Of a stretch of 49,222 nt of DNA, positions 30,268-48,003 are shown piece by piece (position 1 is the stretch's first letter; each line of letters opens with the position of its first letter). The DNA is from a virus, in IMG/VR virus record IMGVR_UViG_3300033183_000010, positions 1 to 49,222 of that record. One strand, 5' to 3'. The notes beneath the pieces are model-generated. The model was given only the letters and a program-made list of their open reading frames with translations, ran no database searches and was not told where the DNA came from. A program made the translations under genes and the position numbers.

Positions 30268-30630
30268 ATGACAACACGTATCTTCGAGGGGCGTTTCAAT
30301 ATTCGCTTGAATACTGAAACTGGTGTAATCAGCCTAGCCAAGGCTACCAACGGTAATTATACCGCTGAGTCAGCCGAATGGTTAGTCGAGACAATCCTGA
30401 CTGGTGCTAAAAAGCACAAGGCAGAACTCGACCGCTGGAGCTTTTACATCAAGGGCGTCAATCAGGAACTCGCCGAAGGCGAAAATCTGAAAGCGTCCGA
30501 GCTGCAGAAAGCTGCGAAAGCGGGCTTCAAGCCGGTCATCAAGGCTGGCAAATGGGGCAAACCACGTCTCGACATGGTGAACCCTGAAGCACCATCCGCC
30601 AAGCAAAACGACAACATCGTTCTGCTTTAA
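30268..30630 (+). CDS. Small early protein, paralogue of 31670-32035
   Basis: A 120-aa protein (MTTRIFEG start); AGGAG lies 7 nt before ATG 30268, which is preferred to the upstream in-frame ATG at 30238. It shares with the product of 31670-32035 an EG-x-x-N-x-x-x-N start, TG…NGNY-A, a RW-FYI…VNQEL core, GKWGKP, and a DNIVLL end. No known domain recognised. Being the first gene of the early strand with its own promoter and terminator, it is probably abundant and made early. Function unknown. Confidence 0.7.
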   Translation: MTTRIFEGRFNIRLNTETGVISLAKATNGNYTAESAEWLVETILTGAKKHKAELDRWSFYIKGVNQELAEGENLKASELQKAAKAGFKPVIKAGKWGKPRLDMVNPEAPSAKQNDNIVLL

Positions 30631-30903: not shown

Positions 30904-31086
30904 ATGAAATATGTTGGTGGAATGATTTGCTTTGCAGGATTCTTTTTGATGATGGCAGGCGTGGGCACAATCGAAGCAGATGACTCAATAGTAGGTATCG
31001 AATTGGTTATTTGGTTCCTGATAAGCCTGATTGGGTGTGTAAGTTTTGGAATGGGCGCACTGATACTGAACCAATACTGGAAATAA
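30904..31086 (+). CDS. Small two-TM membrane protein
   Basis: A 60-aa protein from ATG 30904, chosen because GGAGG lies 5 nt upstream; the ATG at 30892 overlaps that site. Two hydrophobic segments (about residues 5-22 and 33-56) indicate an inner-membrane hairpin. Early position suggests host-membrane modification or exclusion, but nothing in the sequence proves this. Confidence 0.6.
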   Translation: MKYVGGMICFAGFFLMMAGVGTIEADDSIVGIELVIWFLISLIGCVSFGMGALILNQYWK

Positions 31087-31119: not shown

Positions 31120-31198
31120 GTGTAAAGTTTATGTCTAGGATATATATCCCCCCATTGCTCGGGGGGTTACGGCACACTCTAATGTCAGGTTTTAGAGG

Positions 31199-31502
31199 TA
31201 TCTATACTATCTAGTTTAAACTTGACGCTATATGTGGGGTTTTAGATAGCCAAACTATACAACATCTTGATAGAAAAACCATAGAAATCGGTATATCCAG
31301 AGCCATATGTATAGTATTACTATCTAAACTATCTAAATTATATAGTTTTTTTTCATATACCCTTTCCTAAACTTAATTGTTGCGGAATATTATGATTTGC
31401 GCGTAGCGCCACATTATCCCAAAATAACTAGATAGTTTAGATACCTGACACTTAACCCCTTGATTATACTCATCTTCTCAGTATCTATTGTCAGTAGATA
31501 CT
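31199..31502. repeat. Iteron-like TATCTA repeat cluster
   Basis: TATCTA occurs nine times on the two strands: plus at 31199, 31208, 31321, 31330, 31482; minus at 31243, 31429, 31438, 31495. Three are 15-bp double sites with the two halves 9 bp apart: TATCTATACTATCTA at 31199-31213, TATCTAAACTATCTA at 31321-31335, and the exact same 15-mer inverted at 31429-31443. At 31480-31502 AGTATCTA and TAGATACT form a perfect inverted repeat with a 7-nt loop. Confidence 0.85.
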
Positions 31503-31572
31503 CTTTGAAACGCCGCCGCCTACTCTAAAGAAATCTATATACTTGCATTCAGTCTATAAACGGGGGGCAAAC

Positions 31573-31601
31573 TTGACAAACCGAGCAGGTCGGCGTAAAG
31601 T
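31573..31601 (+). promoter_or_regulatory. Sigma-70-like promoter
   Basis: TTGACA (31573-31578), 17-nt spacer, TAAAGT (31596-31601, 4 of 6 to consensus). It lies about 70 nt before the next gene and just after the repeat cluster. Confidence 0.65.
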
Positions 31602-31622
31602 TTGGGCTGTCCCTTGGGGCGG

Positions 31623-31669: not shown

Positions 31670-32035
31670 ATGGCTAAAACTTATGAAGGTAATCTTAATC
31701 TGGCGTTCAACAAATCTACTGGTTTGCTTTATCTGCAACCCTCTGATGATGGCAAGTATAACGCCACCAATATCATGGAACTTGTAGCGTCTGCTATGGC
31801 GTTCTGTGATTCCAACCCTAAAGCGGCGTTTAATCGTTGGGACTTTTACATCCCCAATGTAAACCAAGAACTAGACCGTGAGTCTAAAGCGCTTCCTCAA
31901 TCCAAAGTTAAGGACGCTATTGACCGTGGTGATGTCGCTACTCTAGGCGTTGGTAAATGGGGCAAGCCTAAAGTCACCATTGCAGGTGAAGTTAGACACA
32001 TCAAGAAAGCGGATGACAATATTGTCCTGCTGTAA
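31670..32035 (+). CDS. Small early protein, paralogue of 30268-30630
   Basis: A 121-aa protein with GGAGG 8 nt before ATG. It shares the EGN-N…STG, DGKYNATN, RWDFYIPNVNQEL, GKWGKP and DDNIVLL segments with the product of 30268-30630. It is expressed from its own promoter beside the TATCTA cluster and followed by its own terminator, so it is probably separately controlled. No domain recognised. Candidates include a DNA-binding or host-takeover protein. Confidence 0.7.
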   Translation: MAKTYEGNLNLAFNKSTGLLYLQPSDDGKYNATNIMELVASAMAFCDSNPKAAFNRWDFYIPNVNQELDRESKALPQSKVKDAIDRGDVATLGVGKWGKPKVTIAGEVRHIKKADDNIVLL

Positions 32036-32737: not shown

Positions 32738-32918
32738 GTCCGCACTGAAACTCTTTATGCTTCGATACATTAAGAGTGGAGCAATCGTAACTGGAGATGA
32801 TGGTAAGCCATTATTCTTCAGCCATAAGGGAGCCGCTAAGGCTGTCCGCACTAAGGACATGAAGGTGTCCTTTGGCCCTGACCATCACAAATTCAACGCT
32901 CATCGGGAGGTAATGTAA
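32730..32918 (+). CDS. Small hypothetical protein preceding MoxR gene
   Basis: A 62-aa basic protein (LFMLRYIKSGAIVTGDDGKP, FFSHKGAAKAVRT). AAGGAG lies upstream of ATG. Its end overlaps the ATPase gene (TAATG), so the two are translationally coupled. No domain identified; it may be part of the MoxR operon. Confidence 0.5.
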   Translation: MNKSALKLFMLRYIKSGAIVTGDDGKPLFFSHKGAAKAVRTKDMKVSFGPDHHKFNAHREVM

Positions 32919-33913
32919 TGCGAGCCGAACTTGTAAAACAAACAATTAAGGATTTATTTCCTACTAAACGAGCCTTGTCTATCATCGGCGCTCCAGGTGG
33001 CGGTAAGACAACACTCGTGAGAACTGCTTCTCAGGAGATGGACATTGGCTACATCGAGAAGCATATGCCAACCATGCTTGTAGAGGACTTCGGTATCCCC
33101 GATGTTGCCACTGCTAGCGATAAGTTTGGCTACAAGATACCCGAATGGTATCCCGCTGAAGGTCGGGATGATATACCTGACGAGGGTATTCTCTGCTTCG
33201 ATGACCGTAACCAAGCAGGTAATGACTTGCAGAAAGTGCTAGCCAATATTCAACAGGCTAGAACATTGCATGGTGTGCCACTCAAAGCAGGGTGGATGGT
33301 CATCTCTACTGGCAACAGACAAGAGGACAGAGCAGGTGCTAACCGTGTTCTATCTCACCTTGCTAACCGTGAGACTGTCATCGAACTTGACACTCACCTT
33401 GATGACTCAACCAAGTGGATGATTGAGAACGATGTAGCCCCTGAGGTAGTGTCGTTCATTCGCTTCCGTCCTAATCTGCTACATGATTTCGATCCTCAGC
33501 GTGACCAGAATCCAACGCCTCGTTCATGGGTCGAGGGTGTGAGCGCAGTGCTTGGCGTAGTCAGTCCCGATGCTGAATACGAGTGCTTCAAGGGTGCTGT
33601 AGGTGAAGGTGCGGCGGCAGAATTTGTGGGCTTTGTCCGCATCTATCGCAAACTTCCTAACCCCGACAATATCATTATGAACCCTACTACTGCTGAGGTT
33701 CCTGATGACCCTGCTACTCTGTATGCACTGTCTGGTGCAATCGCAGAGCGAGCAACTGAGAGTAACTTTGAGCGTGTCTGCACTTATGCAGAGCGTATGC
33801 CCCCTGAGTTCTCTGTCTTATCGGTGTCGTATGCGGCTCGTAAGAAACCAGAATTGGCTTCGACGCAAGCGTTCACTAAGTGGGCAATCAACCATCAAGA
33901 TGTCTTGTTCTAA
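32918..33913 (+). CDS. MoxR-type AAA+ ATPase
   Basis: A 331-aa protein. Walker A GAPGGGKT (24-31), Walker B ILCFDDR (91-97), sensor STGNRQEDRAG (130-140) and the arginine-rich region after it fit the MoxR/CobS branch of AAA+ ATPases. These act with VWA proteins as chelatase-like or protein-remodelling machines. The partner genes follow directly: DUF3150 and a metallopeptidase-VWA protein. Substrate unknown. Confidence 0.85.
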   Translation: MRAELVKQTIKDLFPTKRALSIIGAPGGGKTTLVRTASQEMDIGYIEKHMPTMLVEDFGIPDVATASDKFGYKIPEWYPAEGRDDIPDEGILCFDDRNQAGNDLQKVLANIQQARTLHGVPLKAGWMVISTGNRQEDRAGANRVLSHLANRETVIELDTHLDDSTKWMIENDVAPEVVSFIRFRPNLLHDFDPQRDQNPTPRSWVEGVSAVLGVVSPDAEYECFKGAVGEGAAAEFVGFVRIYRKLPNPDNIIMNPTTAEVPDDPATLYALSGAIAERATESNFERVCTYAERMPPEFSVLSVSYAARKKPELASTQAFTKWAINHQDVLF

Positions 33914-34778: not shown

Positions 34779-34981
34779 TGACCTTAGATGAAATCGAGAA
34801 ACTATGGCAGACACGCAAGTCTGCTATGAATGTCTGGCATGACCGTATGCACGAGATGCCTACGCACTCACTCATTGCCTTAGTGCTTGAGTATATGCCG
34901 CTAGGCACTGCGCTTAGTTTGCTAGCCGAGATTGATAAGGACATTAAAGAGTCACAGGAGGATGACAATGGAACTGACTAA
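34778..34981 (+). CDS. Small helical protein in MoxR-VWA operon
   Basis: A 67-aa protein, TAATG-coupled to the DUF3150 gene and overlapping the VWA gene by 14 nt. Mostly helical (ALVLEYMPLGTALSLLAEID) with an acidic C-terminus. No domain known. Confidence 0.5.
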   Translation: MTLDEIEKLWQTRKSAMNVWHDRMHEMPTHSLIALVLEYMPLGTALSLLAEIDKDIKESQEDDNGTD

Positions 34982-36065
34982 ACGACTCAGCAAAGCCAAG
35001 ACTGCATTGGTTCTTGAGCATCCGTTCATCGGCAATGTTGCCATGAATATGCCGTTCAAGATATGTGAAGATGTTCCTACTGCCGCAACTAACGGCAAGC
35101 AGGTCGTCTTTAATCCTGATTTCTGTGAAGCGTTGAATGATGAGGAGCTAAAGTTCCTCATCGCTCACGAATGTATGCACCCTATGTTGGAGCATAACTT
35201 CCGCAGACAAAGCCGTGACCCTCGTAAGTGGAATCAAGCGGCAGATTATGTCATCAACAAACTGTTGGTAGACGAACACATTGGCAAGATGCCTGACTGT
35301 GGTCTGCTCAGTGATGACATTTACAATGCAGGTAATGGCACAAGTGATGGCATCTACAATATCCTGCCCGATACTCAAGACGGTGACAATGACCCACTTG
35401 ATGACTGTCAAGATGGCGAGGGTTCACCTGCCGAACTAGAACAACAGGCGGCAGAGTGGAAGGTAAAGGTTGCTCAAGCGGCACAAGCCGCCAAGATGAT
35501 GGGCAAGATGAGCGCAGGTCTTGAGCGCATGGTCGATGACATACTACAGCCTAAGGTTCATTGGGCTGATGTGCTTCAGAACTTTGTCATCAAGCAACGC
35601 ACTGATGACCGTTCATTTGCAAGACCTAACCGCAGGTTCATACAGCAAGGTATGTATCTGCCAAGCATTACAGGCGAGGCTCTTGGTGAAATGGCGTTCT
35701 GTGTGGACTGCTCTGGTTCGATTGGGCAAGATGAAATCAACCAGTATGCCGCAGAGATTGTCAAGGTTCAGCAAGACCATCATCCTCTCAAGTTACACAT
35801 CATCTACTTCGACTCTGAAGTATCCCACTATGATGCGTATGAGCAGGGTGAAGCACCTGTAATCAAACCACATGGCGGTGGTGGCACTGCGTTCAGTCCA
35901 GTCTTTCAGTTCATGCGTGACAAGGATATTAACCCTGTCGCTTGTGTGTTCCTGACTGACCTGTGCTGTAACGACTTCGGTGACGCACCAGAATATCCTG
36001 TGCTGTGGGTATCTACTCACAGTGATGAAGCACCATTCGGTGAAGTAGTAAAGATGGAGGTATAA
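34968..36065 (+). CDS. Metallopeptidase-like (DUF2201) plus VWA domain protein
   Basis: A 365-aa protein. The start is ATG 34968, since AGGAGG (34956-34961) lies 6 nt before it and directly abuts the ATG at 34962. Residues 67-71 are a zinc-protease motif HECMH in AHECMHPMLEH. The middle is acidic (DGDNDPLDD…) and helical. The C-terminal VWA domain has MIDAS VDCSGSI (246-252, DxSxS) and a GGGTAF stretch near residue 305. These proteins partner with MoxR ATPases. Whether the HExxH site is an active peptidase is not known. Confidence 0.8.
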   Translation: MELTKRLSKAKTALVLEHPFIGNVAMNMPFKICEDVPTAATNGKQVVFNPDFCEALNDEELKFLIAHECMHPMLEHNFRRQSRDPRKWNQAADYVINKLLVDEHIGKMPDCGLLSDDIYNAGNGTSDGIYNILPDTQDGDNDPLDDCQDGEGSPAELEQQAAEWKVKVAQAAQAAKMMGKMSAGLERMVDDILQPKVHWADVLQNFVIKQRTDDRSFARPNRRFIQQGMYLPSITGEALGEMAFCVDCSGSIGQDEINQYAAEIVKVQQDHHPLKLHIIYFDSEVSHYDAYEQGEAPVIKPHGGGGTAFSPVFQFMRDKDINPVACVFLTDLCCNDFGDAPEYPVLWVSTHSDEAPFGEVVKMEV

Positions 36066-43860: not shown

Positions 43861-44817
43861 ATGAGTGATTTAATCCCTACCAATATCCAAGTACCTGCAC
43901 ACTTGGCTAGTAAAGTTGGTAAACCGTCTGCGCTAGCGCAGTCATTGATGGGCGGCATGTCAAGCAATGCTGATAGCTACCCACGCATATCTATTAAAGG
44001 CGCACGTTTCCGCATTGTCGAAGATGGCAATGAGACTGTGCTTGACAGCAATGTGTTGGAGGCTGTCATCGTTGGGGCTAACCCACGACTATCAAAGACA
44101 TGGTATGCAAAAGCATGGACGCCTGATGCTGAACCGTCTGCACCGGACTGCTTCTCACTTGATGGCGTTAGCCCACATGTAGACAGCACTGACCCACAGA
44201 ATGACCTCTGTGCTAGCTGTCCGCAAAACGCATGGGGTTCTAAAGTGACACCGCAAGGGCAACAGATTAAAGCCTGTGCTGACCAGAAGCGTCTTGCTAT
44301 CGTAGCGGCTGATGACCCCGAAGGCGCAGTGTATCTACTACAAGTTACACCTGCCGCACTGAAAGGTCTCAACGCATACCAGAAGGAGTTGTCAGTAAGA
44401 GGCATCGCCCCTGAGATTGTGCGTACTAAAATCTCGTTTGACACCAACGCATCGTTCCCGAAATTACAGTTCTCTTTCGGTGGCTTCAATGATGAGGACA
44501 CACAGAACGCTGTCGATAAGTTGTTTGGGACTGACGAGGTGAAGGTCATCACAGGAGAAGTTGCTCTCACAAGCAAACCTGCGGAAGTACCGGCAATCGA
44601 AAAGCAAGCTGAGCCTGTTGCTCCTGCACCTGCACCAGAGCCTAAGGCAGAGGAACCTGCTCCAGTAAAAGGGTTCGGTGCTAAGAAAGCCGCTGATCCT
44701 GCCCCTGAGAAACCAAAGGTAGTCGAAGAACCTAAAGCCGCACCTGTGGCTAATGGGCAAGCCGATGACTTAGCGGCTGAGATTGCCGCATTGGTGGGGG
44801 ATGTAGCTGATGACTAA
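43861..44817 (+). CDS. Candidate ssDNA-binding protein with acidic tail
   Basis: 318 aa from ATG 43861 (GGAG 6 nt before it; ATG 43855 directly abuts that site). Residues about 20-200 form a beta-rich domain with CASCPQNAWGS and KACADQKR, a Cys cluster that may bind zinc. Residues about 240-300 are an Ala/Pro/Glu linker. The end is acidic (AAEIAALVGDVADD), like the protein-interaction tail of SSB. The ssDNA-binding role is inferred from layout and replication context. Confidence 0.55.
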   Translation: MSDLIPTNIQVPAHLASKVGKPSALAQSLMGGMSSNADSYPRISIKGARFRIVEDGNETVLDSNVLEAVIVGANPRLSKTWYAKAWTPDAEPSAPDCFSLDGVSPHVDSTDPQNDLCASCPQNAWGSKVTPQGQQIKACADQKRLAIVAADDPEGAVYLLQVTPAALKGLNAYQKELSVRGIAPEIVRTKISFDTNASFPKLQFSFGGFNDEDTQNAVDKLFGTDEVKVITGEVALTSKPAEVPAIEKQAEPVAPAPAPEPKAEEPAPVKGFGAKKAADPAPEKPKVVEEPKAAPVANGQADDLAAEIAALVGDVADD

Positions 44818-45094
44818 TGTGCCACCGCTAGACTTCACGAAAGTGGAAGCCCTGCGGAAACACATGCTACTGACGACAGGCAATATGGCTGAGTTGTTTG
44901 AAGTATCACGAATGACTTATTACGGATGGGTAAAGGGTAAGCCCATCCGTCAGAAGAACGATGACAAAGTTCGTGAGATACTACGGAAACTTCTTAGCCT
45001 AATGTCTGAGGGGTGGCCTCAACCAGAGGTCATAGCCCTTGAGCAGAAGTATCGTTTTCAAAGGCTTCTTGAGATTTTGGGCAAAGAAGAATAA
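44810..45094 (+). CDS. Small HTH protein
   Basis: A 94-aa protein with an HTH pattern, TTGNMAELFEVSRMTYYGWV, as in phage repressor-type HTH proteins, and a helical C-terminus. It overlaps the previous gene by 8 nt. It could regulate the operon or assist replication initiation. A hairpin follows its stop codon. Confidence 0.65.
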   Translation: MTNVPPLDFTKVEALRKHMLLTTGNMAELFEVSRMTYYGWVKGKPIRQKNDDKVREILRKLLSLMSEGWPQPEVIALEQKYRFQRLLEILGKEE

Positions 45095-45122: not shown

Positions 45123-45144
45123 CGCAACTATGAAGGTGGCATAT

Positions 45145-48003
45145 ATGAACACGTTGGAGTTTCTTCAGCGAGTTCTACCGTCCGAAGGGTACTATGTAAC
45201 AACACTAATAAGCCCAGAAGGCAAAGTACAACAAGGCTTTTTCGATACGGTAGAGGAACTCGCTACAGCCTGTCTTAAACTAGACCAAGTACAGACAGAT
45301 AAGAATGTTTATTTCGCTGTTTCAGCATTTGCTAATAAAGGAAACAGGAAACAAGATAATGTAAGGGCTACTAAGCTAGTCGCCCTAGATGTGGATTGCG
45401 GAGCAGATAAACCATTCCCTACATGGAAGGATGGACTGACTGCGCTCGGTAAATTCATTGCAGAACTAAGGCTACCCAAACCAATGATTGTTAAGTCGGG
45501 CAATGGCTTGCATGTGTATTGGGTATTCAACGAAGAACTAGAACCCAAAGACTGGAAGCCGCTAGCTGAAGCTATGAAGCAAGCATGTGTGGCTAAAGGC
45601 TTTGAGGTTGACCCTGCTGTTCCTGCTGACAGCGCAAGAGTATTGCGTCCAGTTGGAACGCACAATCGTAAAGGCGGTGCAGAGGTACAAGTTATTGTGC
45701 AAGCTGATCCTGTAGATGTCTCTACTCTGAAGGATTGCTTAAGTTATTACTTCAAGGCGGCGCCAGCAGCAAGTATAGATCGCACTCGTGACAACACGTT
45801 GCTCGACAATCTAGCGGTGAAGCAAGAGTTCCCACCTGCCGTTGGCTCTGTAGTAGCGTCTAAGTGTAAGCAGATTGAGTGGGCGATAAACAACCAAGCC
45901 GATGTAGATGAGCCACTATGGTATGACCTTATAGGTGTAGCGGCACACTGCGTTGACCCTGAGACCACAGCTAAAGAATGGAGTAATCAGCATCCGTCGT
46001 ATGATGAAAAAGCTACCATACAGAAACTTGTTCATTGGAAAGAGTCCACTACTGGCCCGACGACATGTGCGAAGTTTGAAACAGACAGACCGAATGGATG
46101 TAGAGGCTGTAAGTTCAAAGGCAAAATCGGCTCACCTGCCAGACTTGGGGTGCAGTATCAAGAGGTGGCTCTTCCACAGGAGGCGTTAGATAAAGTAGCT
46201 AACTCCATACCTATGCCAAAGCCATTCAAGCGTACAGCAGATGGCATTAAAGTAACGATAGACGATACAGATATAGATGTATGCAAGTTCGATACATACC
46301 CAGTGGGTTATGGCTATGATGAGTCGTTAGGATATGAAACTGTCCGCTTCCACTGGAACAGACCACACATGGGATGGCAAGAGATTATGCTACGCCAAGC
46401 GTATCTTGCAGAGGGTAGCCGAGAGTTTGCAACGGCAATCGCAGACCAAGGTATTGTCCTTTATAACAAGCGGCAGACGGAGTATTTTCAACTTATGATG
46501 CGAACATATATGGAGGAACTAAGACAAATCCGTGCCATGACTAACCTCTACTCAACGATGGGATGGAAAGAAAAGAACACGGCATTTGTTTTAGGCGACA
46601 CACTTATTAGGCGTGACGCTAATGGGGCAGTGTCAGAGGAGCAAGTAAACCTATCATCAGGTATACAGAGACAAGGGGGAGAGTTGTACCAGACAAAGGG
46701 TACGCTCGAAACTTGGTCGGCACTAACAGGGATCATGGAAAAGGCAGACCTCAAGACGCATATGTTTGCGCTAGGGGTGGCGTTCTCTGCACCACTGTAT
46801 AACTTTACTGGACTCAAGGGTCTGACTATCTCACTCTACGGAGCCACTGGTGGGGGCAAAACACTCGCTCAGTATTGGGGTCAGTCCATATGGGGCAACC
46901 CAGACAAGCTACACTTTGCCGCTAAATACACACAGAACAGCTTGTTCACACGACTTGGCACATACGCTAACCTTCCGCTGACTATTGATGAAGTCACGAT
47001 GATGAACGACAAAGAGGTCGGTGACTTCTGCTATTGGGTATCGCAAGGCAGAGACAAGGCTCGATTGAACCGCAACGCTGAAGAACGAGACGCTAAGACA
47101 TGGGCTACACCTGTCATAGTATCTACCAACAAGTCTCTGCAAAGTAAGTTGATAGCCTCTGGCCTAGACACAGACGCACAGATGGCTCGTTTGCTAGAGA
47201 TTACTGTGCCGCAAAGCCCTATATTCACCAGAGATAGCACCGCAGGTAAGAAGATTTATGACGCTATCCACGCTAACTACGGTCATGCAGGGCGTGTTTT
47301 TATCAAGAACCTACTAGAGATGGGCGAAGAAGGCATTACTGCCGCTATTGCAGAAGCCTCAGAGAGTTTCCACAGAAAGTATAAAGCAAAGTTTAGCGGT
47401 GAAGAACGCTATTGGGAGCAGTCAATCATTCTTGCTGACCTAGCTATGAAGCTAGCTGACGATTGGAACCTCATCCAGTTTAAGTATCAAGACGCAACCG
47501 AGTGGGTACTGTCACAGATTGGTGCTATCCGCAGGACTGTCCAAGAAAACCAAGTCGATGCGTTTGATCTCATCGCTGAATACATGGCTGACAGTGCAGA
47601 TGCACAGGTTACTATCATGCACACAGCAGGGCAGAAGCCACAGCCAGATTACAGCCGTATGCCACGCGGTGACATTAGGGTTCGCCTTGATGTATTCCGT
47701 AAGTCTGCCGCTGACCCATTCGACAAAGGCACGATGATGATAGACCGCACTCACTTCCGCAAGTGGTTGTCTGTACGCGGAGCTGACTACAAGTCATTCA
47801 AAGAGGAACTTGCTGTGGAGCAAGCGATTGCTACACCGAAGTCAGAGAAAGCATCACTAGGTAAAGACACGCCAATTAAACTAGCGCAGTCCTATGTGAT
47901 TGGTTTTAACCTGACGCACCCACGCTTCCACAGTCTATTAGAAAACGCTGATGTAGCGGCTGATGACTTAGCCTATGGTCAATTACAGGTGGTCAAAGAG
48001 TAG
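45145..48003 (+). CDS. Primase-helicase: AEP-type primase plus DUF927 helicase domain
   Basis: 952 aa from ATG 45145 (AAGGTGG 6 nt upstream; ATG 45130 has no site). N-terminal AEP-like primase: ALDVDCG (Asp82, Asp84), KSGNGLHVYWVF (about 118-128), RVLRPVGTHNRK. Middle: a PriCT-type region (YDEKATIQKLVHWKES) and a Cys set ending CRGCKFKG. C-terminal DUF927 ATPase: Walker A GATGGGKT (about 566-573), Walker B LTIDEV (about 611-616). It would unwind and prime DNA for the polymerase. It ends at TAG 48001-48003, abutting the convergent gene. Confidence 0.85.
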   Translation: MNTLEFLQRVLPSEGYYVTTLISPEGKVQQGFFDTVEELATACLKLDQVQTDKNVYFAVSAFANKGNRKQDNVRATKLVALDVDCGADKPFPTWKDGLTALGKFIAELRLPKPMIVKSGNGLHVYWVFNEELEPKDWKPLAEAMKQACVAKGFEVDPAVPADSARVLRPVGTHNRKGGAEVQVIVQADPVDVSTLKDCLSYYFKAAPAASIDRTRDNTLLDNLAVKQEFPPAVGSVVASKCKQIEWAINNQADVDEPLWYDLIGVAAHCVDPETTAKEWSNQHPSYDEKATIQKLVHWKESTTGPTTCAKFETDRPNGCRGCKFKGKIGSPARLGVQYQEVALPQEALDKVANSIPMPKPFKRTADGIKVTIDDTDIDVCKFDTYPVGYGYDESLGYETVRFHWNRPHMGWQEIMLRQAYLAEGSREFATAIADQGIVLYNKRQTEYFQLMMRTYMEELRQIRAMTNLYSTMGWKEKNTAFVLGDTLIRRDANGAVSEEQVNLSSGIQRQGGELYQTKGTLETWSALTGIMEKADLKTHMFALGVAFSAPLYNFTGLKGLTISLYGATGGGKTLAQYWGQSIWGNPDKLHFAAKYTQNSLFTRLGTYANLPLTIDEVTMMNDKEVGDFCYWVSQGRDKARLNRNAEERDAKTWATPVIVSTNKSLQSKLIASGLDTDAQMARLLEITVPQSPIFTRDSTAGKKIYDAIHANYGHAGRVFIKNLLEMGEEGITAAIAEASESFHRKYKAKFSGEERYWEQSIILADLAMKLADDWNLIQFKYQDATEWVLSQIGAIRRTVQENQVDAFDLIAEYMADSADAQVTIMHTAGQKPQPDYSRMPRGDIRVRLDVFRKSAADPFDKGTMMIDRTHFRKWLSVRGADYKSFKEELAVEQAIATPKSEKASLGKDTPIKLAQSYVIGFNLTHPRFHSLLENADVAADDLAYGQLQVVKE

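Follow-up and report, generated by a model that had tools for sequence, protein, structure and literature searches.

The window analysed here, a linear virus record of 49,222 nt, contains at about 31159–31502 a module that is very probably an iteron replication origin bound by the C-terminal domain of the phage's DUF927 primase-helicase; we place the probability of this reading at roughly 0.83. It is grounded in the sites, their layout and conservation, their concerted respelling among relatives, the homology of the proposed initiator and its covariation with the sites. Beyond these observations we infer iteron binding, melting, helicase loading, the use of IHF and a role for residue 909.

Virion genes (terminase, portal) lie on the minus strand to the left of the module. 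To its right, on the plus strand, is the early/replication block, which encodes a MoxR-type ATPase and a partner protein, a family-A DNA polymerase, a Cas4-like exonuclease, an SNF2-like helicase, a small HTH protein and the DUF927 primase-helicase. The ATPase (32918–33913) has relatives in N4-like phages, for example Salmonella FSL SP-076 and Achromobacter JWAlpha. The product of 34932–36065 carries the PHROG label ‘HNH endonuclease’, yet its sequence resembles a VWA/metallopeptidase partner. The polymerase genes of genomes G007, G011, G017 and G085 each contain a single in-frame stop (TAG, TAA, TAA and TGA, respectively), with matches otherwise intact. Paralogous small proteins are encoded on either side of the module (30268–30630 and 31670–32035) and share an invariant GKWGKP and a DDNIVLL-like tail; a confident model of the latter (pLDDT 87) has no PDB match. 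Near-DNA and distant-DNA searches returned no DNA-level match to named phages, while the nearest isolates by protein include Pseudomonas phage Rollin and Rhizobium RHph phages. The only host clue, from a genome collection search, is two doubtful MAG contigs. Rfam gave just one RNA element match, which is below threshold and outside the module.

Sites and origin signs in the intergenic gap

The gap hosting the cluster is 583 bp long, from an ORF end at 31086 to an ORF start at 31670. TATCTA occurs nine times within 304 bases, at 31199+, 31208+, 31243−, 31321+, 31330+, 31429−, 31438−, 31482+ and 31495−. The 15-bp double site TATCTAAACTATCTA is present in perfect copies at 31321–31335 (+) and 31429–31443 (−) and in a one-mismatch copy at 31199–31213, just as the original prediction had placed them. 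The nine-copy cluster and the three double sites with halves 9 bp apart, on which that prediction was built, also stand when compared with dinucleotide shuffles of the local AT-rich stretch: shuffled controls carry a mean of 1.07 and a maximum of 7 TATCTA, nine copies are reached in 0 of 20,000, and the three double sites in 9-bp register compare with 0.0016 expected. No exact double site is found elsewhere in the 49-kb window, or outside the module in other near-complete TATCTA genomes.

Directly after the central pair, at 31339, is a degenerate 9-bp unit, TATATAGTT, and the central array can thus be read as three tandem 9-mers, TATCTAAAC-TATCTAAAT-TATATAGTT. The AT-rich stretch with its T-tract at 31305–31381, a candidate DNA-unwinding element, contains the window's AT-richest 60-bp windows, which overlap this array. 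Clustered short repeats in one non-coding place, an adjoining AT-rich region and a layout conserved in relatives, by which iteron origins are recognized, are all found here. In 9 of 10 genomes the cumulative GC-skew minimum also falls no more than 1.5 kb from the module, a result confounded by the switch in gene direction about 1 kb off, which could itself cause the minimum.

Conservation and respelling of the module

Related loci were retrieved through the ATPase and the terminase and not through the motif, with motif hits added. In 101 loci the TATCTA cluster is located between the ATPase and terminase genes, and about 88 related loci show, in the same gap, fixed offsets (0+, 9+, 44−, 122+, 131+, (140+), 230−, 239− and 282+) that recur nearly to the base. 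The check that could have overturned the original prediction, a 15-mer scattered or missing from the gap in relatives, came out on its side. An alignment of 36 modules, dereplicated from the 88, consists of near-identical islands at the sites with variable DNA between them; TCGGGGGGTT, AACTTKACA and the downstream TTGACA promoter form islands as well. In the shared layout the AT-richest 60 bp adjoin three tandem 9-bp iterons; an inverted pair lies about 100 bp off, another pair is distal, and a subset of the modules adds an IHF-like site. Slots A, B, C1, C2 and D keep TATCTA in 29–35 of the 36 relatives, with E at 17 and F at 8, figures that are conditional because the set was picked for at least seven TATCTA.

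The left border of the conserved block is the TCGGGGGGTT box (31159–31168, +), preceded by CCCCCCAT and near-invariant among the 36 dereplicated TATCTA relatives; it lies about 40 bp leftward of the iterons. Pair A (31199–31213, +), which is TATCTATAC followed by TATCTA in 9-bp register, has TATCTA at its slots in 31/36 and 35/36 relatives. Iteron B, a lone inverted site within TTTTAGATA (31243–31248, −), is kept in 33/36. Array C (31321–31347, +) shows TATCTA in 35/36, 34/36 and 24/36, so its third unit, degenerate in the window phage, is TATCTA in most relatives. Pair D (31429–31443, −), inverted relative to C and about 100 bp from it, follows with 29/36 and 31/36. Adjoining D is an IHF-like site, WATCAANNNNTTR (31453–31465, −), whose strict consensus is matched here in 10/36 relatives; such sites number 0.64 per module as compared with 0.08 in shuffles. 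The TATCTA module lies 70 bp upstream of a conserved sigma-70-like promoter leading into the early operon, TTGACA-17-TAAAGT (31573–31601, +), where relatives conserve AAACTTGACA; the match starts at 31573, the position at which a promoter had been predicted.

The hairpin predicted at 31480–31502 is present in the sequence as AGTATCTA-TTGTCAG-TAGATACT, with a 7-bp spacer. As a conserved element it does not survive: its arms, iteron E (31482–31487, +) and iteron F (31495–31500, −), carry TATCTA in 17/36 and 8/36 relatives, and the hairpin is rejected as a functional part.

A second conserved motif, AACTTKACA/TGTMAAGTT, was recognized from the footprint alignment and the motif list, with one copy being AAACTTGACG (31218–31227, +). 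Several copies lie within 31183–31262 and others at 31569–31605, 29987 and 30143, and it is present with both iteron spellings described below. The copies, in the module's left half and at places that resemble promoters, could be a −35 element or a site of the invariant HTH protein. In one locus (L069 11693–12100, on the contig of genome G079), arrays C and D abut directly and the AT-rich middle of about 90 bp is missing, owing either to loss of the DNA between inverted repeats or to faulty assembly.

Fifteen loci with both flanking genes had no TATCTA cluster. In the examined genomes of this group the gap mostly keeps the layout with the sites respelled, TATCTA becoming AATCTA. In G011, for instance, the equivalent of array C is AATCTAAAC-AATCTAAAT-AATATAGGT, then a T-tract and the inverted TAGATTATTTAGATTG, whereas only degenerate TATCTR sites are retained in G015. 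Besides these TATCTR sites, the G015 gap (L180) holds many TTTACACC/GGTGTAAA repeats. A further 22 genomes, reached through the primase-helicase, have AATCTA, AATCTG or GATCTA modules in the same place. In TATCTA modules, 330 of 356 NATCTA sites start with T; in the other set, 167 of 188 start with A or G. All sites have thus changed in concert while the layout was kept, as expected from one sequence-specific reader.

The proposed initiator and the identity of the reader

The DUF927 primase-helicase (45130–48003, +) is the proposed initiator, with a C-terminal domain at about aa 740–957 that includes residue S909. Its sequence matches PDB 8tch (SaPI), PDB 5dgk (SCCmec Cch), Pfam DUF927 and NCBIfam Cch1 (E 9e-15); the last score is far under the equivalog cut-off, and the protein is therefore a relative of Cch1 and not an equivalog. 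A DUF927-type AAA+ helicase core is present, while the N-terminal extension gives only a weak AEP-primase match; DUF927-AEP primase fusions are known from mobile elements (PMC5862659). The modelled C-terminal 218 residues (pLDDT 82) follow a helix-turn-helix and wing order, with 5dgk as their best PDB match at a modest E of 0.014 (probability 0.98). The C-terminal domain of SaPI Rep recognizes origin iterons, the isolated C-terminal domain of Cch2 binds its own direct repeats, and the DUF927 protein Cch is related to SaPIbov1 Rep (PMC7581432). The initiator gene (45.1–48.0 kb) is about 14 kb from the module (31.2–31.5 kb), which is not directly downstream of it.

Covariation was assessed in 36 genomes for which spelling (dialect), primase-helicase and polymerase are known. 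Columns that fully separate the dialects number 3 of 957 in the primase-helicase (485, 839 and 909) and 0 of 637 in the DNA polymerase. With four distant genomes removed, the primase-helicase count rises to 22, and the C-terminal fifth holds 15 of these. Residue 909 lies in the motif ATPKSxKA[S/Y]LGKDTP. TATCTA phages have Ser there, the distant G050, G051 and G079 among them, and AATCTA phages Tyr or Phe; Ser is no strict rule, since G080 combines Ile with TATCTA. When the tree is built with the C-terminal domain left out, dialect and residue-909 class change three times each. As only two to three independent dialect switches are available (sign test p 0.5), the covariation is not statistically decisive. 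Column 909 was also chosen from the same data, which leaves G085 and G079 as the sole semi-independent checks; G085 had Tyr909 while its dialect was still unknown, and the module fetched afterwards was AATCTA, as predicted. Phe909 as a marker of AATCTG is ruled out by G058, in which many AATCTG sites occur with Tyr. Genomes G084, G083 and G093 had no module in their fetched ends and hence have no bearing on the code. Tentatively, then, natural origin dialects may be set by very few wing residues of the C-terminal domain, with Ser or Ile at 909 reading TATCTA and Tyr or Phe reading AATCTA, a proposal we consider somewhat short of even odds.

It is unlikely that the origin is instead read by another protein, be it the small HTH protein, a host factor or some other, with the primase-helicase recruited secondarily. 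The HTH gene (44810–45094, +) does adjoin the initiator gene in the genomes examined, and G080 violates a strict 909 rule. However, the putative recognition helix of the HTH protein, SR[MV]TY[YH]xWV, is near-identical in both dialects, a host protein should not yield a lineage-specific spelling that tracks the phage initiator, and members of the initiator's family use their own C-terminal domain for iteron binding (PMC7581432). The HTH protein and the two paralogous small proteins, which the original prediction had put forward as binders, are accordingly disfavoured, the former by its nearly invariant helix and the latter because recognizable homologues are absent from several module-bearing genomes. 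An accessory role for the HTH protein is more plausible. Of the early genes compared between genomes, those for the HTH protein and the primase-helicase are the ones in which two distant TATCTA genomes, G010 and G017, stand clearly nearer to the window than AATCTA genomes do.

A cooperative transcription operator without a replication role, at which a phage regulator on the TATCTA sites would govern the divergent late (−) and early (+) genes, is quite improbable. The module's place between the two gene blocks, shortly upstream of the conserved TTGACA promoter, would suit such an operator, as would the presence of the small HTH protein. Nevertheless, the 340-bp layout with inverted arrays around AT-rich DNA is larger than a usual operator, the double sites are found nowhere else in the genome, and across iteron spellings the HTH helix is constant while the initiator C-terminal domain varies. 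Initiators often repress their own region, and origin and operator functions may therefore both hold. Of the original prediction of iterons and a candidate replication origin or ‘master early operator’, the former is strongly supported by layout, location, AT-richness, skew, respelling and initiator, and the latter may hold as an additional role. An attachment or recombination site for a phage integrase, with arm-type sites, IHF and a core, is highly improbable despite the arm-like repeats, the inverted repeats with their 7-bp spacer and the IHF-like site, since the hairpin core is not conserved, the genome collection yielded just two MAG contigs, and no tyrosine integrase was found in 15 genomes by a search confined to that class, the control search being positive in 14/14 named genomes.

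Comparison with known systems and a model for initiation

The replication origin proposed here is of a known kind in its iterons, AT-rich DNA and self-loading initiator. The SaPI Rep system (SaPIbov1 Rep being the DUF927-related one, and PDB 8tch a pathogenicity island protein) likewise combines a related self-loading initiator helicase, multiple short iterons and C-terminal recognition, the last inferred in the present case. In contrast to SaPI, where the origin adjoins the gene, the present initiator has extra N-terminal sequence and belongs to a 50–60 kb phage with the origin some 14 kb from the gene. SCCmec Cch/Cch2 and the putative SCC origin are similar in the Cch1 and 5dgk matches, by sequence and fold, and in direct-repeat iterons. 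In SCC, however, the gene is immediately followed by three short iterons, whereas here about 10 sites form a two-sided layout of 340 bp with an IHF-like site. Iteron plasmid and lambda-type origins (RepA, lambda O) also have iterons adjoining AT-rich DNA, but their iterons are longer and their separate initiator brings in the host helicase; no such separate initiator was recognized in the window phage.

Pseudomonas phage Rollin (OR577172) encodes a near-full-length initiator homologue (25 %) and a homologous terminase (46 %). Its positions 260–680 contain three tandem 9-mers, TTGCATACT, with AT-rich DNA next to them and inverted sites flanking, although the spelling is TTGCATA, the spacing differs and no origin is annotated. 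Eight of nine TTGCATA sites found lie in this 420-bp stretch, and these are all eight of the first 20 kb; the one other is in a 43-kb stretch also read. Repeated palindromes of the type AAAAGGTAGTAACTTACTACCTTTT occur near the Rollin iteron cluster, at 1–510. In the stretch examined of the Rhizobium RHph phages there is no 9-bp tandem array.

In the proposed mechanism, the winged-helix-like C-terminal domain of the primase-helicase would bind the 9-bp iterons, and helicase rings would form on arrays C and D, which face opposite ways, with probable help from bending by host IHF and from pair A, the distal one. Next to C, the AT-rich stretch would then melt, allowing the helicase to self-load and prime, after which the phage family-A DNA polymerase would extend. 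Iteron spelling and the reading surface of the initiator, for which residue 909 is the best candidate, may have changed together and so produced dialects on the same layout.

New in this system are the two-sided 9-bp layout, the distance from the initiator gene, the spread among phages that are uncultured and the coevolution of the dialects. These phages, a large group, gain a located origin and a probable initiator, and a type of self-loading initiator familiar from the staphylococcal SaPI/SCC islands is extended to ordinary large phages. If the dialects are indeed set by so few residues, sequence could reveal whether co-infecting phages are compatible in replication, and the need for initiator and origin to match would limit recombination. 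The co-respelling of all sites in step with a helicase residue suggests a lock and key that can be tracked in nature, and this natural series of matched origin and initiator variants makes the evolution of origin recognition open to direct testing.
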